From NCBI GenBank assembly GCA_945865425.1, contig CAMBFN010000004.1, positions 1 to 40,519 on the forward strand: a stretch of 40,519 nucleotides of DNA, read 5' to 3'. The notes under the pieces were generated by a model. It saw only the letters and a program-made list of their open reading frames with translations. It was not told the origin of the DNA and made no database searches. The stretch comes from Comamonas sp. lk (GTDB taxonomy: Bacteria; Pseudomonadota; Gammaproteobacteria; Burkholderiales; Burkholderiaceae_C). The position numbers were made by a program, and so were the translations under genes. Below are positions 2,895 through 16,421 of the stretch, in pieces. The stretch's first letter is position 1; each line of letters starts with the position of its first letter.

Positions 2895-3695
2895 TCAAGC
2901 CCCTAGCAGCACCGGAAACGCCGCCGAGTCCATGGCCGCGCCAGGGGTCGGACCGCCTGAAGGTGGGGGCGGGGGCGACATAAAGCCGCTGCGCAGCACA
3001 AATCGGGCATCGGACCCGGTAAAGCGCGCTGAGAAGGCGCGGCGCCGGTTGGGGCTGGCGTTGGCCGGGGCACCATGTACGGTCAGGCCATGAAACGCAA
3101 TGCAGTCGCCCACTTCCAGCGGCCATTGCAAAACGCGGTGTTGCGCGCGTTGCGCCTCAAAATCGGGCGGCGGTTCAAAGCGCGGATCTTCGGCTGCATG
3201 GGTCTTGGAATCCACAAAGCGTGCCGGCGTAAACCACCTTCCCCAAGCGTGCGAACCGCCAATGAATTCGATGGCCGTATCCTGGTTCACCGGGTCCAGC
3301 GGTATCCAAAAGCTGATGATGTGCTCGCCGTCTATGGGGTAGTAAGGCTGGTCGTGGTGCCAGGGCGTGCGCTCTTTGGTACCCGGCTCTTTGACCAAAA
3401 TATGTTCGTGGTACAGATTGACCTTGGACGAGTCCATGAGCTGTGCCGCCAGTTGCTTAATGGGTGATTCAAAAAAGAAGTCGCGGTAGGCGTCAATGCG
3501 CTGCCAGTTGCAATAGTCACCAAAAAATCGGCCTGGGTTGCCCTCGGGTGTGTAGTGCTTGGCGTAGGGGCCGGGCTGGCGCAAATTTTCTTCAACGCCT
3601 TCGCGCAAGCGCTCAATCCAATCCATGCTGACGACCTGGCGCAGCGGCACTGCGCCGTCTTTTTGGTAAGCTGTCCGAGTGTTTTGGTCGATCAT
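2895..3695 (-). CDS. phytanoyl-CoA dioxygenase (PhyH) family Fe(II)/2-oxoglutarate oxygenase
   Basis: This 266-residue protein carries the PhyH iron-binding triad: HxD at H113-H114-D115 in the segment WHHDQPY, and a distal histidine at H207 in LTVHGAP. Arginines at 217-219 (NRRRAF) are placed to bind 2-oxoglutarate. FWIPLDPV and FIGGSHAW are typical core strands of the family. PhyH enzymes hydroxylate small molecules using 2-oxoglutarate and oxygen, and some cause dealkylation. The C-terminus has an unusual proline run (PPPPPSGG) near 241-248. I start at ATG 3695; the open frame extends to 3848, but that extension is a translation of a REP-like repeat. The gene is divergent from the Rieske oxygenase gene, and a HutC-type palindrome lies in the shared upstream region. 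The substrate is unknown; an imidazole compound is my inference. Confidence 0.9.
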   Translation of the reverse strand: MIDQNTRTAYQKDGAVPLRQVVSMDWIERLREGVEENLRQPGPYAKHYTPEGNPGRFFGDYCNWQRIDAYRDFFFESPIKQLAAQLMDSSKVNLYHEHILVKEPGTKERTPWHHDQPYYPIDGEHIISFWIPLDPVNQDTAIEFIGGSHAWGRWFTPARFVDSKTHAAEDPRFEPPPDFEAQRAQHRVLQWPLEVGDCIAFHGLTVHGAPANASPNRRRAFSARFTGSDARFVLRSGFMSPPPPPSGGPTPGAAMDSAAFPVLLGA

Positions 3696-3765
3696 GCGTG
3701 CTCCTATGGGGTGCGTGGCGGCTGGGCGAATGCTACGGTGGTTGAACGAAGGTCTGGATAAGCCC

Positions 3766-3852
3766 GTCATCGCGAGGAGCGCAGCGACGCGGCGATCCAG
3801 CAGTGCAAGATTCTCAAGCCAAAGTGGATTGCTTCGCTTTGCTCGCAATGAC
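3766..3852. repeat. REP-like palindromic element
   Basis: The left arm begins GTCATCGCGAGGAGCGCAG and ends GGCGATCCA at 3799. The right arm at 3825-3852 begins TGGATTGCTTCGCTTTGCTC and ends GCAATGAC. The arms are imperfect inverted copies around a 25-base centre. This is the common short interspersed type beginning GTCATTGCGAGG. It lies in the untranslated leader of the PhyH gene and belongs to the same family as the array at 6284-6700. Confidence 0.75.
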
Positions 3853-3879: not shown

Positions 3880-3900
3880 AAGTTGTCTAGACAACTATAC
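3880..3900. promoter_or_regulatory. predicted HutC operator 1 (PhyH/Rieske intergenic)
   Basis: GTTGTCTAGACAAC at 3882-3895 is a perfect 14-base palindrome, with AA before it and TATAC after it. It differs at one core base from operator 2, which lies exactly 66 bases downstream and has the same flanks, and it closely matches the palindrome at the hutU promoter. It is the operator nearer the PhyH gene and probably controls the minus-strand promoter, or acts with operator 2 through looping or cooperative binding. Binding of HutC is inferred. Confidence 0.75.
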
Positions 3901-3919
3901 GCTTGTTATTTGACTTGAA

Positions 3920-3967
3920 GGCTCAGGGTTTTCCCGCTTTAGCTTAAGTTGTATAGACAACTATACT
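3920..3967 (+). promoter_or_regulatory. predicted HutC-controlled promoter of the Rieske-aminotransferase operon (operator 2)
   Basis: The element reads GGCTCAGGGTTTTCCC (3920-3935), ten bases, then AAGTTGTATAGACAACTA (3946-3963). It overlaps a good -10 box TATACT at 3962-3967. The same 16-mer and 18-mer with the same ten-base gap occur on the minus strand at 15621-15664, upstream of hutU. The palindrome GTTGTATAGACAAC lies in the spacer just upstream of the -10 box, where a bound repressor would block polymerase. No clear -35 box is present. Predicted transcription would start near 3974, giving a leader of about 60 bases before the ATG at 4036. Confidence 0.8.
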
Positions 3968-4035: not shown

Positions 4036-5118
4036 ATGTTTTTGCGCAATACCTGGTATATCGCCGCTTGGGATAGCGAACTTGGCAGCAGCCCGCACGC
4101 AGTGCAGGTGCTGGGCGAGCGCATCGTGCTCTATCGCAAGTCGGACGGCAGCGCCGCCGCCTTGGAGGACGCCTGCCCACACCGCAAACTGCCGCTGTCG
4201 CTGGGCCGTATTCAGGGCGACCATATCGAGTGCGGTTACCACGGCCTGACTTTTGACTGCAGCGGCGCCTGCGTGAAGGTGCCGAGCATGGACAGTATCC
4301 CGCCGGGCGCGCGGGTGCGTGCCTACCCGCTGCATGAGCGCTACGGTTTGTTGTGGATTTGGATGGGCGAGTCTGAGCGCGCTGACCCGTCCACCATCCA
4401 CGCGATTGCGTATTGGGATGACCCTGCTTGGGGTTGTAACCAGGGCGAGGCCATCGACATGGCCTGCAACTACCTGCATATCACCGACAACCTGCTGGAC
4501 CCTTCGCATGTGTCATGGGTACACCAAAGTTCGTTTGGCAATGCTGCTTGCGAAGATACGCCGCTCGATACCATCGTCGCCGATAACGGCGTCACCGTGT
4601 CGCGTTGGATGCGCGATGTCGAACCTGCGCCTTTTTATGTCCCTTTCCTCAAGTTCCAGGGTAACTGCGACCGCAAGCAGCAGTATGAAGTGCGCTTTCC
4701 CAGCCACGCCTATATCAAGGCGATTTTTGTACCGGCGGGCACGGGAGGTGACGACAAGCCTTTGCACACCGATGGTTTCATTATGGACAGCTATAACTTT
4801 ATGACGCCGGTAGATGAAAACCACACGCGTTATTACTGGTTTCAGATGCGCAATTTCGCGCCCGATGATGCCGAGGTGTCGCGCCAGTTCACCGAGTCGG
4901 TGCGTGGCGCTTTTGCAGAAGACAAGGTGATTTTGGAAGCGGTGCACCGCGGTATAGAAACTGCCAGTGTGCCGCCAATTGGCTTAAAAATTGACTTAGG
5001 TCCGACACGCTTTCGCCGCGCTATGGCGCAGTTGATTGCCGAAGAAAATTCGCAGGCCCAAGCCCAAGGTCCAGCGCGCACGCGTTCCATCCCCATCCAA
5101 GCGGAGACGGTATCTTGA
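4036..5118 (+). CDS. VanA-like Rieske [2Fe-2S] ring-hydroxylating/demethylating oxygenase, alpha subunit
   Basis: This 360-residue oxygenase starts MFLRNTWYIAAW, typical of the vanillate demethylase (VanA) class. The Rieske cluster ligands are C47 and H49 (CPHR) and C66 and H69 (CGYHG). The mononuclear iron site is the segment DNLLDPSHVSWVH, with H158 and H163. Relatives remove O- or N-methyl groups or hydroxylate rings, taking electrons from a separate reductase. I use ATG 4036 because AAGGAG at 4022-4027 precedes it with good spacing; the upstream extension to 3949 would run through the operator. The aminotransferase start overlaps its stop. The promoter shares the hutU control element, so the substrate is probably a histidine or imidazole derivative (inference), for example an N-methylated one. 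No VanB-type reductase gene is in the window. Confidence 0.93.
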   Translation: MFLRNTWYIAAWDSELGSSPHAVQVLGERIVLYRKSDGSAAALEDACPHRKLPLSLGRIQGDHIECGYHGLTFDCSGACVKVPSMDSIPPGARVRAYPLHERYGLLWIWMGESERADPSTIHAIAYWDDPAWGCNQGEAIDMACNYLHITDNLLDPSHVSWVHQSSFGNAACEDTPLDTIVADNGVTVSRWMRDVEPAPFYVPFLKFQGNCDRKQQYEVRFPSHAYIKAIFVPAGTGGDDKPLHTDGFIMDSYNFMTPVDENHTRYYWFQMRNFAPDDAEVSRQFTESVRGAFAEDKVILEAVHRGIETASVPPIGLKIDLGPTRFRRAMAQLIAEENSQAQAQGPARTRSIPIQAETVS

Positions 5119-6230
5119 GCGCCACCCACCAGGGCCTGCATTTCAATCCCCATGTGGCCGCCCTGCCGCCCTATAACGCAGGGACCAATGTGGCGATTGC
5201 CCGCGCGGCCTCGGGCATGCAGGACATTGCCCGCTTAGCCAGTAACGAAAACCCCGAAGGCTGCTCGCCCAAGGTCATGCAGGCTTTGGCCTCCAGCACC
5301 TTTGAGCCTTGGCGTTATGCGGACCCGGCGTGTACGGCTTTGCGCGCGGCACTAGCGGTGCGCTTGGGTGTAGATGTGGCGCAGATTGTGGTGGGCAATG
5401 GCTCAGAAGAAATGATTGCAGCGGTGTCGCGCGCCATGCTGGTACAGGGTAACCAGGTCCTCACCGTAGTGCCTAGTTTTGGTCTGCATGAAATCGAACC
5501 CCTGGCGATTGGCGCCACTGTGGTCAAGCTGCCCATGACGGCAGAGTTTGGCTTTGACTTGGCGGCCTTGGAGCGTGCCATGGCCGCAGGCCCGCGCATT
5601 GTGTTTTTATCCTCGCCCTGGAACCCGGTGGGGCCTGCGCTCAGCCATGCCGATTTGCAGCGTGTGCTCCGTGCGGTGCAACCGGGCAGCTTGCTGGTGC
5701 TAGACGAAGCCTACTTTGAATACGCCGACCCCGGCAGTGTTGACGGCTTGGAAATGCTCAAGACCAGTGGCCTGCCCTTTGTGGTGTTGCGCACTTTTTC
5801 CAAGGCCTACGGATTGGCGGGTTTGCGGGTGGGTTACGCGGTGTGTTCAGATGGGGAAATTGCGCGTGTTATGGGCTCGGCCAAAACGCCTTTCAACGTG
5901 AATGCTGCCGCGCAATTGGCCGCTGTGGCCGCCCTCGAAGATGATGCCTGGATGCGCGCTTCGGTGGCGCGCTTGCGCACCGAGCGTGCGCGCGTGGCCC
6001 AGGTAATAAAAGCGCTGGGTTTACGCGTAGCCGATTCGCAAACCAATTTTTTGTTTTTCGAATGCCGCAGTGATAGCGCCGAACAAGCCGCGGCGCTCTT
6101 GCGCCAGGGCATCATCGTCAAGGCCTGGCGCGAAGCGGGGTACGAACGCTTTATGCGCGCCACGATTGGCAGCACGCAAGACAACGACCGTTTGTTGGCT
6201 GCGCTGGCGCTGCTCAACCCAAAACCTTAA
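5115..6230 (+). CDS. HisC-like class II PLP-dependent aminotransferase
   Basis: This 371-residue fold-type I aminotransferase resembles histidinol-phosphate aminotransferase: SNENPEGCSPKV near 43-53, LDEAYFEY near 196-203, the PLP lysine K230 in TFSKAYGLAGLRVGYA, and a C-terminal MRATIGSTQDN with the conserved arginine. The usual NNPTG loop is SPWNPVG, so the PLP-contacting Asn (170) is kept but the neighbouring Thr is Val. The start is a TTG at 5115 overlapping the Rieske stop as TTGA, so translation is probably coupled. No other his biosynthetic gene is nearby, and the gene sits behind a HutC-type promoter. This suggests a catabolic role such as histidine or modified histidine to imidazolepyruvate rather than histidine synthesis (inference). 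A genuine hisC that happens to lie here is the alternative. Confidence 0.88.
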   Translation: MSATHQGLHFNPHVAALPPYNAGTNVAIARAASGMQDIARLASNENPEGCSPKVMQALASSTFEPWRYADPACTALRAALAVRLGVDVAQIVVGNGSEEMIAAVSRAMLVQGNQVLTVVPSFGLHEIEPLAIGATVVKLPMTAEFGFDLAALERAMAAGPRIVFLSSPWNPVGPALSHADLQRVLRAVQPGSLLVLDEAYFEYADPGSVDGLEMLKTSGLPFVVLRTFSKAYGLAGLRVGYAVCSDGEIARVMGSAKTPFNVNAAAQLAAVAALEDDAWMRASVARLRTERARVAQVIKALGLRVADSQTNFLFFECRSDSAEQAAALLRQGIIVKAWREAGYERFMRATIGSTQDNDRLLAALALLNPKP

Positions 6231-6283
6231 ATGTGGCGCAATCCAATTGAGGCCAATGCCCCCATGGCGAGCGAGGCTAGCCC

Positions 6284-6585
6284 GTCATTACGAGGCCGCA
6301 GGCTGTGGCAAAGTCTTGTCATTGTGAGGCCGCAGGCTGTGGCAAAGTGGCGTCATTGCGAGGCCGCAGCCGCGACAAAGTGTTGTCATTGCGAGGCCGC
6401 AGGCCGTGGCAATCCAGGACTTCATGCTTTGGCGGTAGTGACCTCATTGCAGCATGGACTGCCGCGTCGCTTCGCTCCTCGCAGTGACGGATCTCGCGTG
6501 GCCGCATCCTTGACAAAGTGTCGTCATTGCGAGGCCGCAGGCCGTGACAAAGTGTTGTCATTGCGTGGCCGCAGGCCGTGGCAAT
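6284..6585 (+). repeat. tandem and dispersed REP-like half-units, period 33-34 bases
   Basis: Copies starting GTCATTGCGAGGCCGCAGG begin at 6284, 6318, 6352, 6385, 6523 and 6557, with a decayed copy near 6487. Four of them are consecutive at 33-34 base spacing. Some copies end in GACAAAGT and others in GGCAATCCAGG. The copies at 6385 and 6557 have matching inverted right arms (TCGCTCCTCGCAGTGAC near 6470-6487 and a similar one near 6620-6637), so full REP-type palindromes are nested in the array. Together with the block at 6621-6700 this accounts for most of the gene-free stretch 6231-6828. Confidence 0.82.
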
Positions 6586-6620
6586 CCAGGGCTTCATGCC
6601 CGCATGTATCGCCACGTCGC

Positions 6621-6700
6621 TACGCTCCTCGCGATGACGGGTCTGGTGTGATTTACGCTCCTCGCGATGACGGGTCTGGTGTGATTTACGCTGCTCGTGA
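6621..6700 (+). repeat. 33-base direct repeats derived from the REP right arm
   Basis: TACGCTCCTCGCGATGACGG recurs at 6621 and 6654, and a decayed copy (TACGCTGCTCGTGATGA) starts at 6687. The first two copies are followed by the same GTCTGGTGTGATT, giving an exact 33-base period. The unit is the inverted arm of the repeat family found at 6284-6585, here multiplied on its own. Confidence 0.8.
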
Positions 6701-6828
6701 TGAATTAGCTTCGCAATGTGTTCCTAGCCTGTGCATCCGCATAATGCGCCAAGTTCGGTGCCAAGTCTGCCGTATATGGCGGTGTAAATCGCTTTCATCT
6801 GCGTTAAATTTTTTCTAGGAAATACGCC

Positions 6829-8232
6829 ATGCCTAAGACCTCAATTCCTGCTACTTTGCTCCAAGCGCTGCGCCAAGCCATCGGTGCCGACTATGTAGCG
6901 ACCGCCGAGGCGGTCGCGCTTTTGGATGTAGGTTGGAACCCGCAGAACCTGGGCGCAGGCATCGTCGTCTCGCCCGGCTCTACGCAGGAAGTGGCTGCAG
7001 TAGTGCGCTTGTGCGCGCAGCACGGTGTATCGCTGGTGCCGCAAGCTGGGCGCACCGGACTGGTGGGTGGCAGCGTGTCGCAGCTGGGGCAAATCGTGTT
7101 GTCGTTATTACGTATGAATCAGATCGAACCCATTGATGCGGCTGAGCGCGTGGCGGTGGTGGGCGCGGGTTGCACTTTGCAGGCTTTGCAAGAGGCCGCT
7201 GCGGCAGTTCAACTGGAGCCGGGCATTGATCTGGCCGCACGCGGTTCGGCCACCTTGGGCGGCATGGTGTCTACCAATGCCGGCGGTGTAATGGCGTTTC
7301 GCAATGGCGTAATGCGCCACCGCGTGCTTGGCCTCGAAGCCGTGCTGCCGGACGGCACGGTGTTTCAGGATTTGACGCGGGTGGTGAAGAACTCTGCGGG
7401 CTACGACCTGAAACATTTGTTCATAGGCGCTGAAGGTACGCTGGGTGTGGTCACGCGCGTAGTCATCAAGCTGGACCCGCTGCCCCCGGCCAGCGCCACG
7501 GTGTTGCTCGGCCTGCCGTCGGTGGAGGCAACTTTGGAAGTTATCAGCCGCGCCTTGCATATCGACGCCGGCCATTTGCGCGCTGCCGAGGCCTTGTGGC
7601 AAGGCTTTATGCAGCTCAACGCCCACGCCTTGCAATGGGTGGACGCAGCCATGCCGCTAGACCAGCCCATGTACCTCTTGCTCAAGTTGGGCGGCAACCA
7701 AAGCGATGCGCTAAATGCCGCGCTGGAAAATTTATTTGAATCCATTGCCGCCGATTACCCCGGCGCCACCGGCATCATCGCCAGCTCGGCGCGTCAGGAG
7801 AACGAACTGTGGCGCCTGCGCGAAGACACCGACATCGTCTATCGCGCGCACCCGCAAGCGCCGTCCTACGATGTATCAGTACCGCTTTCGCGCATCCCTG
7901 CGTACGCGGCGCAAGTGCAGACCGAATTAGCCCAATACGACGCCGCCTGGCGTCCCTATATCTTCGGCCACCTGGCCGATGGCAATCTGCACATCATCTT
8001 GAATCAGGCCGGTCCGCTGCCGCCCAAGCGCGCGCAAGCGGTAGAGCACATCCTTTACCGGAACTTGCAAGCCATGGGCGGCTCGTTCTCCGCAGAGCAC
8101 GGCGTAGGCTCCAAGCGCATCGGCGCGATGAACGACACCACCGACAGCACCAAGCTGGCCGCTATGTCGCAGGTGAAGCAGTTGTTAGACCCGCAGCGGC
8201 TGATGAATCCGGGCAAACTGTTTGTGGCCTGA
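6829..8232 (+). CDS. FAD-linked D-2-hydroxyacid dehydrogenase (GlcD/D-LDH/D2HGDH family)
   Basis: This 467-residue flavoenzyme has the PCMH-type FAD domain at the N-terminus (PQAGRTGLVGGS near 71-82, RGSATLGGMVSTNAGG near 138-153) and an FAD-oxidase C-terminal domain with FGHLADGNLHI near 379-389 and EHGVGSKR near 423-430. These enzymes oxidise D-2-hydroxyacids such as D-lactate, glycolate or D-2-hydroxyglutarate to 2-oxoacids. ATG 6829 follows TAGGAAA at 6815-6821. It lies 598 bases beyond the HisC-like gene, with repeats between, so it probably has its own promoter. A near-palindrome GCCGTATATGGC at 6769-6780 upstream is a possible operator for an unknown regulator. Oxidation of imidazolelactate to imidazolepyruvate would fit the neighbours, but that is speculative. 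Confidence 0.9.
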   Translation: MPKTSIPATLLQALRQAIGADYVATAEAVALLDVGWNPQNLGAGIVVSPGSTQEVAAVVRLCAQHGVSLVPQAGRTGLVGGSVSQLGQIVLSLLRMNQIEPIDAAERVAVVGAGCTLQALQEAAAAVQLEPGIDLAARGSATLGGMVSTNAGGVMAFRNGVMRHRVLGLEAVLPDGTVFQDLTRVVKNSAGYDLKHLFIGAEGTLGVVTRVVIKLDPLPPASATVLLGLPSVEATLEVISRALHIDAGHLRAAEALWQGFMQLNAHALQWVDAAMPLDQPMYLLLKLGGNQSDALNAALENLFESIAADYPGATGIIASSARQENELWRLREDTDIVYRAHPQAPSYDVSVPLSRIPAYAAQVQTELAQYDAAWRPYIFGHLADGNLHIILNQAGPLPPKRAQAVEHILYRNLQAMGGSFSAEHGVGSKRIGAMNDTTDSTKLAAMSQVKQLLDPQRLMNPGKLFVA

Positions 8233-8299: not shown

Positions 8300-8617
8300 A
8301 TGATCACCCAAACCAGCGCCGTGAATTTCAGGCAAAACCTGGGCGAAATGCTCAACCAAGTGCAGTACCGCCAGGACAGCGTACTGATCAGCAAGGACGG
8401 CAAACCCGTCGCTGCCCTGGTGGACGCCCGCTTGTTTGAACGTATCCGGCGCATGCAAGGCCGCTTTGATGCGCTGTGCCAGCGGATTGAAACTGGCTTT
8501 GCTGCAGTGCCGCAAGAGCAGGGCTTGGCTGACATCGACACGGCCATTTCGGCGGAGCGGCAGGTCATGAACAAGCAGGCACCGGGCGCCAGCGCAAAAC
8601 CACGCCAGGTCACTTGA
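8300..8617 (+). CDS. Phd/YefM-family antitoxin
   Basis: This 105-residue protein starts MITQTSAVNFRQNLGEMLNQV, and the segment VLISKDGKPVAALVDARLFERI follows, the usual Phd/YefM N-terminal DNA-binding and dimerisation fold. The C-terminal half from about residue 60 should wrap and inhibit the toxin. ATG 8300 follows GGAAAAA closely; the frame extends upstream to 8222, but that part crosses the palindromes. It overlaps the PIN toxin start by four bases, so the pair is translationally coupled. The antitoxin would neutralise the toxin and repress the operon. Confidence 0.88.
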   Translation: MITQTSAVNFRQNLGEMLNQVQYRQDSVLISKDGKPVAALVDARLFERIRRMQGRFDALCQRIETGFAAVPQEQGLADIDTAISAERQVMNKQAPGASAKPRQVT

Positions 8618-9051
8618 TTGCGCTGCGTATGGGCCTGGTGCTAGATACCAATGTATTGCTGTCAGGGATCGCCTATCCGGCCAGCATCCCAGGCAAAATT
8701 TTGACCGCCTGGCACCGGGGTTCTCTGGAACTGGTGCTGTCCGATTACCTGTTGGATGAGTTGCGGCGCGTCTTGCCGCGTTTGTCGCACCGCCATGGTT
8801 TGAGCGCTACCGAGATAGACGATTTGGTGGACGCTTTGTCTATCCAGGCCGAAGTCATAGAACCGGACACCAACATAGACCCCGAATTACGCGACGCAGG
8901 GGATCAGCCTGTGCTCGGGACCTTGGTGGCTGGGATGGCGTCTGCAAATATCGACTACCTCATCACTGGGGATAAAGACTTGCTGGCTCTGGTCGGGCGT
9001 TATCCGATCATCACCCCCGCCCAATTTTGGGCACAACACGGCGGCGTGTAG
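8614..9051 (+). CDS. PIN-domain ribonuclease toxin (putative TA toxin family)
   Basis: This PIN-domain protein of 145 residues from TTG 8614, or 140 from ATG 8629, has the acidic residues of the nuclease site: D in VLDTNVLLSG, E in LLDELRRVL, D in RDAGDQPVLG and D in ITGDKDLLALVG. This arrangement is typical of PIN toxins of the COG1569 type, which cleave RNA with Mg2+ or Mn2+. I list the TTG because it overlaps the antitoxin stop as TTGA and AGG lies just upstream; the ATG start would remove only five residues. It is convergent with the amino-acid ABC transporter genes. Whether the pair is active as a toxin-antitoxin system is untested. Confidence 0.87.
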   Translation: MIALRMGLVLDTNVLLSGIAYPASIPGKILTAWHRGSLELVLSDYLLDELRRVLPRLSHRHGLSATEIDDLVDALSIQAEVIEPDTNIDPELRDAGDQPVLGTLVAGMASANIDYLITGDKDLLALVGRYPIITPAQFWAQHGGV

Positions 9052-13852: not shown

Positions 13853-15571
13853 TCAGCGCGCCTGCATGGGCAAATTCAGGCTGTGCGCCTGCGCGCATTC
13901 CTGCGCGACCTCATAGCCCGCATCGGCATGGCGCATGACGCCGGTGGCCGGGTCGTTCCAGAGCACGCGCTCTAAGCGGCGCGCGGCGCTGTCGGTGCCG
14001 TCGCAGACGATGACCACGCCCGAGTGCTGCGAATAGCCCATGCCCACGCCGCCTCCGTGGTGGATGCTGACCCAGGTGGCGCCGCTGGCGGTGTTGAGTA
14101 AGGCATTGAGCAGCGGCCAGTCGCTGACCGCATCACTGCCGTCTTGCATGGCCTCGGTTTCGCGGTTGGGCGAGGCCACCGAGCCGCTGTCCAGGTGGTC
14201 GCGGCCAATGACGATAGGACCTTGGAGTTCGCCACTTTTCACCATGGCGTTAAAAGCCAGACCGGCGCGGTGGCGTTCGCCCAGGCCAATCCAGCAAATG
14301 CGCGCAGGCAGGCCCTGAAAAGCGATGCGCTCACCGGCCATGTCCAGCCAGCGATGCAAATGCGCGTTGTCGGGGAAAAGTTCTTTCATCTTGGCGTCGG
14401 TTTTGCGGATGTCCTCAGGGTCACCGCTCAATGCCACCCAGCGAAATGGCCCTATGCCTTTGCAAAACAAGGGTCGCACATAAGCCGGTACAAAGCCGGG
14501 GTAGTCAAAGGCATTGGCAACGCCAAAGTCTTTGGCGACCTGGCGCAGGTTGTTACCGTAGTCCACCGTGGGTATTCCCATGGCGTGAAACTCCAGCAGC
14601 GCGCGTACATGGACGGCGCAGGACTGACCTGCGGCTTGCTTGAGCGCGGCATGCTGCGTCGGGTCTTGCTGCGCCGCCTTCCATTGGGCCACGCTCCAGC
14701 CCGAGGGCAGGTAGCCATTGATGATGTCGTGCGCCGAGGTCTGGTCGGTCACGATGTCCGGGCGCGGCCCGCCGGCTTTGGCGCGGCGTACCAGTTCAGG
14801 AATGATGTCTGCTGCGTTGCCGCACAGGCCGATAGACACGACCTCTTTGCGATCTGTGTGCAGGGCGATGAGTTGTAATGCCTCGTCCAAGGTTGCGGCC
14901 TGCTTGTCAAGGTAGCGGGTGCGCAAGCGAAAGTCGATGCTGCTTTGCTGGCATTCAATGTTCAACGAGCAAGCCCCGGCAAAGGTGGCGGCTAGTGGCT
15001 GCGCGCCGCCCATGCCGCCCAGGCCGGCCGTTAGGATCCAGCGTCCGGCCAGCGAGCCGCCGAAATGCTGGCGTCCGGCTTCCACAAAGGTTTCGTAAGT
15101 CCCTTGCACAATGCCTTGTGAACCGATGTAAATCCAGCTACCCGCGGTCATTTGGCCGTACATCATCAGGCCGGCACGGTCCAACTGGTTGAAGTGTTCC
15201 CAGTTAGCCCATTGCGGCACCAAGTTGGAATTGGCCAGCAGTACGCGCGGCGCTTCGGTGTGGGTGCGGAACACGCCTACGGGCTTGCCGCTTTGCACCA
15301 GCAGGGTTTCGTCTTCTTTGAGCTTGCGCAGGCTGTCCAGAATGCCTTCAAAACAGGACCAGTTGCGCGCTGCTTTGCCAATGCCGCCATAGACCACCAG
15401 CTGGTCTGGGTTTTCGGCCACCTCGGGGTCCAGGTTGTTTTGGATCATGCGATAAGCCGCTTCAATCTGCCAGTTGGCGCAACTCAAGGCCGGGCCGCGC
15501 GGGGCACGCACCGGGCGGGCTTGGGCATTGGCGAAGGGGGCCAGGGCGGCCTGGGGGAGCGATGCGTTCAT
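13853..15571 (-). CDS. hutU: urocanate hydratase (urocanase)
   Basis: HutU adds water to urocanate to give imidazolonepropionate, using tightly bound NAD+. The protein has 572 residues, near the usual 555-570. Family blocks seen are [14 protein letters not shown] near the N-terminus, the glycine-rich [53 protein letters not shown] and [21 protein letters not shown] use ATG 15571, ten bases after AGGAAA on the minus strand; nine further upstream codons are open but lack support. The HutC-type promoter is about 50 bases upstream. It is first in an apparent operon hutU-hutH-ABC transporter, divergent from hutC. Confidence 0.98.
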
Positions 15572-15616
15572 GGTGCTGGGGTTTCCTGCAAAGCGCACTT
15601 AAGGGTTTGTCAGGAT

Positions 15617-15664
15617 AGTGTAGTTGTCTATACAACTTGCACAATAGGGGGAAAACCCTGAGCC
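15617..15664 (-). promoter_or_regulatory. HutC operator/promoter between hutU and hutC
   Basis: Read on the minus strand, GGCTCAGGGTTTTCCC (15664-15649) is followed after ten bases by AAGTTGTATAGACAACTA (15638-15621), overlapping a -10-like TACACT (15622-15617). The core GTTGTCTATACAAC at 15623-15636 (plus strand) is a near-perfect palindrome of the GntR/HutC type. Its place between divergent hutU and hutC lets HutC control both arms. The hutU leader would be about 40 bases. An equally arranged copy lies at 3920-3967. Confidence 0.85.
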
Positions 15665-15710: not shown

Positions 15711-16421
15711 ATGCCCCAGCCCCCCATGCCAGCCTACGAGCAGGTCAAAGCCTTTATCAAAGCGCAAATCAACCACGGGCACTTGCGCCCGGGCGACGCC
15801 GTGCCCAGCGAGGCGGTGCTGCAACAGCAGTTTGGCCTGAGCCGCATGACGGTGAACCGCGCCATGACCGAGCTGGCCGCTGAAGGATTGCTCACACGTA
15901 TCCGAGGTTCGGGTACGGTGGTGGCGCAATGGCACCGCATCAGCAGTACGCTGGCGGTGCGCGACATCCATGAAGAGGTGCTAGAGCGTGGCCATCGCCA
16001 TAGCTGCGTGGTGCTGACATTGGAAGTTATCAGTGCGGATGCATCCTTAGCCCCTGCCTTAGGCTTGCGCAGCGGCGCCAAGGTGTTTCATTCGGTGATG
16101 GTGCATTACGAGGACGGCGTGCCGATTCAGTTGGAAGACCGCCATGTCAATCCTGCCGCCGCGCCGGATTATTTGCAAGTGGATTTTCAAACCACTACGC
16201 CCACGCAATACCTGTTTCAATGCGCGCCACTCAGCGAGGCGCGCTATTGCATCGAGGCGGCATTGCCTACCAAGCTGGAAGCCAAAGCCCTGGGTATCAA
16301 GCCCAGCGAGCCCTGCTTGGTGATTACCCGTTGCACTATCAGCGGCGCGCAGGTGGCCAGCCAGGGGCGCCTGGTTTACCCCGGTATGCGCTACAACTTG
16401 CAAGGCAATTTTCAGCTATGA
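15711..16421 (+). CDS. hutC: histidine-utilisation repressor, GntR family
   Basis: This 236-residue regulator has an N-terminal winged helix-turn-helix (PSEAVLQQQFGLSRMTVNRA near 32-51, then EGLLTRIRGSGTVV) and a UTRA ligand-binding domain from about residue 90 to the end. HutC proteins repress hut genes and release DNA when urocanate binds. The start may be ATG 15711 or ATG 15726 (five residues shorter); neither has a clear ribosome-binding site. The hutD ATG overlaps its stop as ATGA. The palindrome upstream at 15623-15636 suggests autoregulation. Two further matches at 3882 and 3948 suggest that it also governs the oxygenase cassette. Confidence 0.96.
   Translation: MPQPPMPAYEQVKAFIKAQINHGHLRPGDAVPSEAVLQQQFGLSRMTVNRAMTELAAEGLLTRIRGSGTVVAQWHRISSTLAVRDIHEEVLERGHRHSCVVLTLEVISADASLAPALGLRSGAKVFHSVMVHYEDGVPIQLEDRHVNPAAAPDYLQVDFQTTTPTQYLFQCAPLSEARYCIEAALPTKLEAKALGIKPSEPCLVITRCTISGAQVASQGRLVYPGMRYNLQGNFQL

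Follow-up and report, generated by a model that had tools for sequence, protein, structure and literature searches.

The window, by which is meant the whole 40,519-nucleotide stretch of Comamonas sp. lk DNA analysed here, contains genes for histidine utilization (hut) together with an operon that encodes a Rieske oxygenase, an aminotransferase and a flavin adenine dinucleotide (FAD)-linked oxidase (Table 1). The promoters of the Rieske gene and of hutU, the urocanate hydratase gene, share two conserved blocks, one of which contains a palindromic operator of the type attributed to the repressor HutC. Judged from sequence comparison within the source genome and among its relatives, the Rieske operon is very probably under HutC control.

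A composite element in two promoters of the window

The first block, the 16-mer GGCTCAGGGTTTTCCC, lies at 3920-3935 on the plus strand and at 15664-15649 on the minus strand, and the second, the 18-mer AAGTTGTATAGACAACTA, at 3946-3963 and 15638-15621 on the same respective strands, with a gap of ten bases between the two blocks at both the Rieske and the hutU promoter. This is the arrangement that a preliminary description of the window had reported, and the window sequence bears it out. The same description took the differing spacers to argue against a recent duplication, a view that holds, as identity between the promoters falls to chance level outside the conserved blocks; it also placed hutC in the window, where a TIGR02018 match above cut-off is found at 15711-16421. 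Two of its statements stand only in part. The -10-like boxes that follow the composite element, which it considered the same, are similar but not identical (TATACT at 3962-3967 versus TACACT at 15622-15617). The composite was described as a HutC-type element as a whole; the 18-mer is indeed a HutC-type operator, but the 16-mer is not of this type, since in other genera most hutU promoters with an operator are without it, and forms a separate block at fixed spacing. A further operator, O1 (3881-3896), lies 66 bp upstream of O2, the operator in the Rieske 18-mer, and was missing from the earlier list of sites, though inside the 3880-3966 range named there. The Rieske control region also includes O1 and a divergent PhyH-family gene, beyond what had been described.

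The motif searches of the source genome covered the whole 2.12-Mb assembly, which is 72.7% complete. Only two exact copies of the 16-mer are present, the next best being three sites with two mismatches. The operator core AGTTGTNTANACAACT has three exact copies, all within the window (3881-3896, 3947-3962 and 15622-15637), where about 0.01 site would be expected in the assembly (14 fixed bases, equal base frequencies); its next-best sites are two in number, each with two mismatches. At three mismatches no enrichment of the operator was found in the window (8 sites versus 4.28 expected, with 9 of 100 shuffles reaching 8), and because of this only the exact sites carry weight. Apart from this weak excess, nothing suggests that the elements resemble each other by chance or belong to a widespread repeat. 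That explanation has negligible probability, given the two 16-mers and three operators of the source genome and the conservation of the composite at the Rieske gene and hutU among 11 of 61 same-genus genomes, source included.

Distribution of the operator among related genomes

Relatives of the Rieske protein were represented by the best 80 of 132 loci, with up to 10 kb on each side, and the 11 closest of these (L021-L031) are referred to here as the clade. Named relatives are mostly labelled Comamonadaceae. The core operator is found upstream of the Rieske gene in all 11 clade loci, which were fetched by the Rieske protein. Among the 29 of 80 loci that were scanned, 18 belong to the 69 outside the clade, and none of these 18 has an exact core operator. 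Operator-like sites with three mismatches in three non-clade loci (L057, L068 and L096) were too weak to be counted.

Ten same-genus genomes with the composite element were searched whole using a 14-base core, which yielded 24 cores, 15 at the Rieske gene, 9 at hutU and none elsewhere. More specifically, eight of the ten possess the Rieske gene and all eight have the operator there; the two without it (G005, 95% complete, and G056, 92%) have the hutU site only. G021 and G035, for which 99% completeness is listed, have exactly three operator cores each. Because the genomes were chosen for carrying the composite, the comparison is one of exclusivity and not of frequency.

The sites, their spacing, their genome-wide exclusivity, their conservation and their gene linkage are all results of computation. 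The earlier prediction that the Rieske and aminotransferase genes belong to the HutC regulon is supported by this exclusivity together with the conservation in relatives. Numerous unrelated copies of the element, which the preliminary description had named as counterevidence, were not encountered: the exact sites of the source genome and the cores of the related genomes occur only at hutU and Rieske promoters. Among the points against HutC control of the operon are the preselection of the ten genomes and the lack of the composite in 50 of the 61 same-genus genomes.

Table 1. Genes and predicted regulatory features of the window.
Feature	Position	Strand	Basis
Divergent PhyH-family Fe(II)/2-oxoglutarate dioxygenase	2895..3695	-	Pfam PhyH 7e-30; start chosen from translation
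Operator O1, AGTTGTCTAGACAACT, perfect palindrome	3881..3896	+	Exact match, 1 of 3 in source genome; O1-O2 66 bp in 8/8 distinct two-operator Rieske promoters
Possible -10 TATAGT of divergent PhyH-family gene (speculative)	3894..3899	-	Sequence only; GGGTTTTCCC exactly 26 bp away
GGGTTTTCCC element, putative activator site, about -48 to -39 (within 16-mer 3920-3935)	3926..3935	+	Fixed spacing at 17/17 sites; accompanies loss of consensus -35
Operator O2, 18-mer, core palindrome 3947-3962	3946..3963	+	Exact AGTTGTNTANACAACT match; conserved in relatives
Predicted -10 TATACT of Rieske operon	3962..3967	+	Sequence; TATACT in 12/12 distinct O2-type Rieske promoters
Rieske oxygenase with VanA_C domain	4036..5118	+	Pfam Rieske 3.9e-23 and VanA_C 4.9e-47, both above gathering score
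HisC-like pyridoxal phosphate aminotransferase	5115..6230	+	NCBIfam TIGR01141 2.2e-86, above cut-off
GlcD-like FAD-linked oxidase	6829..8232	+	Pfam FAD_binding_4 and FAD-oxidase_C; GlcD model below its cut-off
hutU, urocanate hydratase	13853..15571	-	TIGR01228 4.3e-276, above cut-off
Possible hutC promoter: TTGTCA, 16 bp, TATACA (TATACA within operator)	15607..15634	+	By eye
Predicted -10 TACACT of hutU	15617..15622	-	Sequence; same position as -10 of TTGACA-type hutU promoters
hutU/hutC operator, core palindrome 15622-15637	15621..15638	-	Exact AGTTGTNTANACAACT match
GGGTTTTCCC element of hutU	15649..15658	-	Within exact 16-mer copy
hutC, histidine utilization repressor	15711..16421	+	TIGR02018 5.7e-84, above cut-off; GntR and UTRA domains

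The operator as a predicted HutC site

Four lines of evidence agree that the operator is a predicted HutC site, namely its linkage to hutU, the identity of HutC, the residues compared with those of NagR, and its position within promoter spacers. The same-family genome sets behind these and later comparisons comprised 299 genomes for the exact operator, 200 for HutC identity and 399 for GGGTTTTCCC near the core. The exact operator is present in 16 of the 299 genomes, source included; one locus was taken from each of the 15 others, 14 of these loci being at hutU and most of them beside hutC. Operator presence follows the identity of HutC as well: all ten genomes in which the best HutC match reaches at least 62% identity, source included, have the operator, versus three of the 190 below this value (G081, G138 and G243), and G143, with a HutC of 61%, has none.

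The third line is provided by NagR, which like DasR belongs to the GntR/HutC subfamily and the operators of which share the palindrome frame of those in the window (NagR GTGGTCTAGACCAC versus O1 GTTGTCTAGACAAC). In the crystallised NagR site, as reported in PMC4333415, Arg38 reads G-5, Arg48 reads G-4 and Gly69 goes with G-7; sequence alignment places Ala35, Arg45 and Gly66 of HutC opposite these three residues. O1 is the NagR site with the -5 pair alone changed, T replacing G in both half-sites, and this change is to be expected because HutC has Ala35 instead of the Arg38 of NagR. The two systems differ also in metabolic role. Finally, in 8 of the 12 hutU promoters without GGGTTTTCCC the operator lies within the 17-bp spacer behind a perfect TTGACA, the classical position for a repressor. 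Among the hutU promoters of other genera, those of L136-L139 have two operators, about 36-58 bp apart.

Not all observations favour HutC as the protein that reads these sites. The preference reported for Pseudomonas HutC is TGTA-N2-TACA (PMC12977541), from which O2 and the hutU site deviate by one base and O1 by two; in clade locus L031, hutU has an operator that fits the preference exactly. The source genome also has four HutC-like matches, which makes another GntR protein formally possible, and the fifteenth operator locus (L145) might be read in the same way. That another repressor of the GntR/HutC subfamily, and not HutC, reads the operators is nonetheless highly improbable, considering the linkage to hutU at 14 of the 15 loci and the manner in which the operator tracks HutC identity. 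At L145 the exact operator (around 1501-1516) is beside a 43% HutC-like regulator and weak matches to ABC-transporter genes, not hutU, and perhaps belongs to a second HutC-type regulon.

With HutC as the predicted regulator, the Rieske-aminotransferase-FAD oxidase operon would have been recruited to its regulon. HutC bound at O2 would cover the stretch from the -35 region to TATACT and block RNA polymerase, as it would at hutU, and urocanate, formed from histidine, would release it and so induce the Rieske operon. Urocanate is the known effector of Pseudomonas HutC. At O1, a second HutC may act as a repressor of the PhyH-family gene or reinforce repression. The possible hutC promoter has its TATACA inside the operator, which suggests that hutC may be autoregulated from the same site.

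HutC regulons have been predicted in 113 genomes, including Comamonadaceae in which they contain hut genes and an ABC transporter (Leyn et al. 2016, PMC5343134). The window resembles the proteobacterial HutC regulons (PMC5343134, PMC12977541) in its HutC-type repressor gene beside hutU and in the palindromic hutU operator that overlaps the promoter. It differs from them in adding the Rieske-aminotransferase-FAD oxidase operon and probably the PhyH gene, and in promoters that bear GGGTTTTCCC instead of a consensus -35; the word 'Rieske' is absent from the main text of PMC5343134. The HutC regulon would thereby gain an oxygenase operon, a member for which the whole-genome evidence is clean, and the operon probably widens the diet of the histidine pathway, perhaps to methylated histidine.

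The second conserved element

Within the 16-mer, the element GGGTTTTCCC keeps a fixed distance from the operator. In the 61 same-genus genomes, CAGGGTTTTCCC occurs 8-12 bases from an operator at 17 sites (8 Rieske, 9 hutU), all with the same spacing. Across the same-family set, GGGTTTTCCC is found 6-16 bases from the core in 4 of 399 genomes, with two sites in the source and one each, at hutU, in three genomes of one other genus; all five sites share one spacing. The clade loci fetched by protein have the element in 9 of 11 Rieske and 5 of 5 hutU promoters, GGGTTTCCCC counted in, and the Rieske copy of L031 is one base closer. A comparison of 9 Rieske with 9 hutU promoters put mean identity at 0.98 (element), 0.97 (operator), 0.46 (spacer), and 0.28 and 0.18 (flanks). 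The first two values are high partly by construction, because possession of both blocks was the basis on which all 18 promoters were selected. More telling is the divergence of spacer and flanks, which approaches chance level while the arrangement stays unchanged.

These figures bear on the possibility that the Rieske promoter is a copy of the hutU promoter, with GGGTTTTCCC a passive relic and only the HutC operator and the -10 of any importance. Both blocks share order, spacing and orientation between the two promoters, as a copy would, and L026 and L030 have a Rieske promoter with operator and -10 but no element. Such an origin is nevertheless unlikely, as a relic should have decayed along with the spacer and flanks, and the element is retained in most of the promoters fetched by protein.

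The element is related to the quality of the -35 region, scored as matches to TTGACA at 16-18 bp from the -10. None of 25 promoters with the element (10 Rieske and 15 hutU, one truncated duplicate having been dropped) has a -35 of five or six matches, their scores being 2-4, whereas 9 of 12 hutU promoters without the element have a good -35, perfect in eight and with one mismatch in L135. For hutU alone the association of element and good -35 has a Fisher p of 4.7e-5, a value to be read with the caution that the relatives are not independent and may represent only one or two events. Because the element accompanies the loss of TTGACA, GGGTTTTCCC, just upstream of the -35 region, probably binds a putative activator separate from HutC, and these promoters would therefore need both urocanate and the activator. 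If the -10 boxes are right, a position of about -48 to -39 would let such a protein touch polymerase. The case for an activator site is evenly balanced, since the exchange of element and -35 may have happened only once or twice and several promoters have neither (L131, L132 and L155 at hutU, L026 and L030 at the Rieske gene); no candidate for a protein that binds GGGTTTTCCC was found. In the two promoters of the window, a second conserved site seems to have taken the place of a consensus -35.

The idea that GGGTTTTCCC is a promoter motif of wider use was rejected: the source genome has 13 sites versus 2 for the reversed control, and the surroundings of all 13 showed a common promoter layout only at the two hut-linked sites. 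In L104 a TATACC stands equally far from GGGTTTTCCC but was discarded, as by eye it falls within a likely coding start.

The divergent gene and a possible change of regulator

The distance between O1 and O2 is 66 bp in all eight distinct two-operator Rieske promoters, and in the same eight GGGTTTTCCC lies 26 bp from TATACT in the Rieske direction and 26 bp from TATAGT in the PhyH direction. One activator could serve both genes. Against this, the 26-bp symmetry follows from the fixed 66 bp, and O1 and O2 have the same orientation; the pair may be a tandem copy (a 24-nt direct repeat). L026 and L029-L031 have a single operator within 350 bp of the Rieske gene on its upstream side. DNA looping between O1 and O2 is not claimed, because 66 bp corresponds to about 6.3 helical turns, which is not a whole number. 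In L029 and L031 a further GGGGTTTACCC-like palindrome is found in the Rieske leader, just upstream of the start.

Outside the clade the regulatory setting appears to be different. By clustering of open reading frames (ORFs), a rough count in which some ORFs are lost, a LysR-type gene is present in 52 of the 80 Rieske loci, on the opposite strand in all 14 instances listed, and 46 of the 80 have a reductase of the ferredoxin-NAD type in the fetched stretch; by the same clustering neither was seen in the 11 clade loci. On the simplest reading of these distributions, HutC may have replaced LysR as the regulator in this clade.

Likely chemistry of the Rieske operon

The operon most likely feeds an imidazole compound into the hut pathway. 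Hut genes are present in the fetched stretch at 25 of the 80 Rieske loci, seven of these in the clade. Genes of formaldehyde detoxification are also found nearby, gfa in 10 of the 80 loci, frmA in 11 and either in 13 (L036, L041, L049, L050, L054, L056, L061, L063, L064, L070, L071, L086 and L092). Four of these loci (L050, L056, L061 and L063) have the order hut genes, frmA, gfa, LysR, Rieske, reductase, aminotransferase, FAD oxidase. A search for gfa through the entire sequence of twelve Rieske genomes, with the family cut-off applied, showed it near the Rieske gene in nine, and in eight of these it was the sole match above cut-off (the genome of L071 has two). Among the other three, the genome of L041 has two matches above cut-off, that of L077 one elsewhere and that of L082 none. 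With one copy in 4-7 Mb, linkage within 10 kb would arise by chance in less than about 1% of cases per genome, a figure tempered by the shared history of relatives. In L036 (Acidovorax sp. SRB_14), a span of 20 kb includes hut genes, a transporter, a GntR regulator, the Rieske, aminotransferase and FAD oxidase genes, and the genome's only gfa above cut-off.

Against Protein Data Bank (PDB) sequences the Rieske protein matches dicamba O-demethylase DdmC (3.5e-46) and the methylxanthine N-demethylases NdmA (1.4e-19) and NdmB (5.5e-15). It shares the Rieske and VanA_C domains with these single-subunit demethylases and monooxygenases, and its relatives outside the clade have the reductase in the same stretch, as noted above; it differs from DdmC, NdmA and NdmB in its linkage to histidine genes and in the lack of a reductase gene in the operon. 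The hut and formaldehyde-detoxification genes nearby suggest a demethylase of methylated histidine that feeds the hut pathway, and the gfa/frmA linkage together with the demethylases among the PDB relatives makes this the most economical reading. Methylhistidines are common as breakdown products of animal tissue. It is proposed, tentatively, that the operon may be an oxidative demethylase route from methylated histidine to histidine and formaldehyde. Several observations weigh against the proposal. Neither gfa nor frmA is nearby in 67 of the 80 loci, with none seen in the clade loci, and 55 of the 80 have no hut gene within the fetched stretch. The window operon has no reductase gene, and the best match in the source genome has 28% identity; at the completeness of this genome, absence of a reductase is not concluded.

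Alternatively, the operon could handle imidazole-lactate and imidazole-pyruvate, an FAD oxidase and then an aminotransferase leading to histidine, in which case the Rieske enzyme would hydroxylate and not demethylate. The presence of a HisC-type aminotransferase and a GlcD-type oxidase in one operon would suit this route, as would the growth of Comamonas testosteroni on imidazolyl-lactate, for which the literature searched yielded no report. This alternative is improbable, if not strikingly so, as the linkage to gfa or frmA in 13 of the 80 loci is better explained by release of formaldehyde. A fuller version of the demethylase proposal is itself doubtful: the Rieske enzyme would act as an N-demethylase of methylated histidines, the aminotransferase and a hydroxyacid oxidase would handle the keto and hydroxy forms, and the LysR regulator would have been replaced in this betaproteobacterial clade by HutC and a second factor, an activator at GGGTTTTCCC, a single site midway (26 bp each way) between the Rieske -10 and the possible PhyH -10 that would serve both genes.

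In the open-licence full-text literature, no account of this operon, no Rieske enzyme in histidine or methylhistidine catabolism and no bacterial Rieske route for methylhistidine was found. The demethylase proposal would give a Rieske family seen in alpha-, beta- and gammaproteobacteria a class of substrates that can be tested.

Other genes and repeats of the window

To the right of the hut operator lie hutC, hutD, hutI, hutG and hutF, and to the left hutU, hutH and an amino-acid ABC transporter. Between the aminotransferase and FAD oxidase genes, an ORF of 195 aa (6231-6818) was rejected as a gene, as it has no Pfam or NCBIfam match and consists of tandem and dispersed repeats. Repeats of the GTCATTGCGAGG... 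type, dispersed and tandem, are found at 3763-3810, between the PhyH gene and O1, and at 6283-6686 in this gap, which measures 598 bp in the window versus about 92 bp in L021. Between the FAD oxidase and the ABC transporter there is a PIN-domain toxin-like gene (8614-9051), likewise present in L021, L022 and L024.
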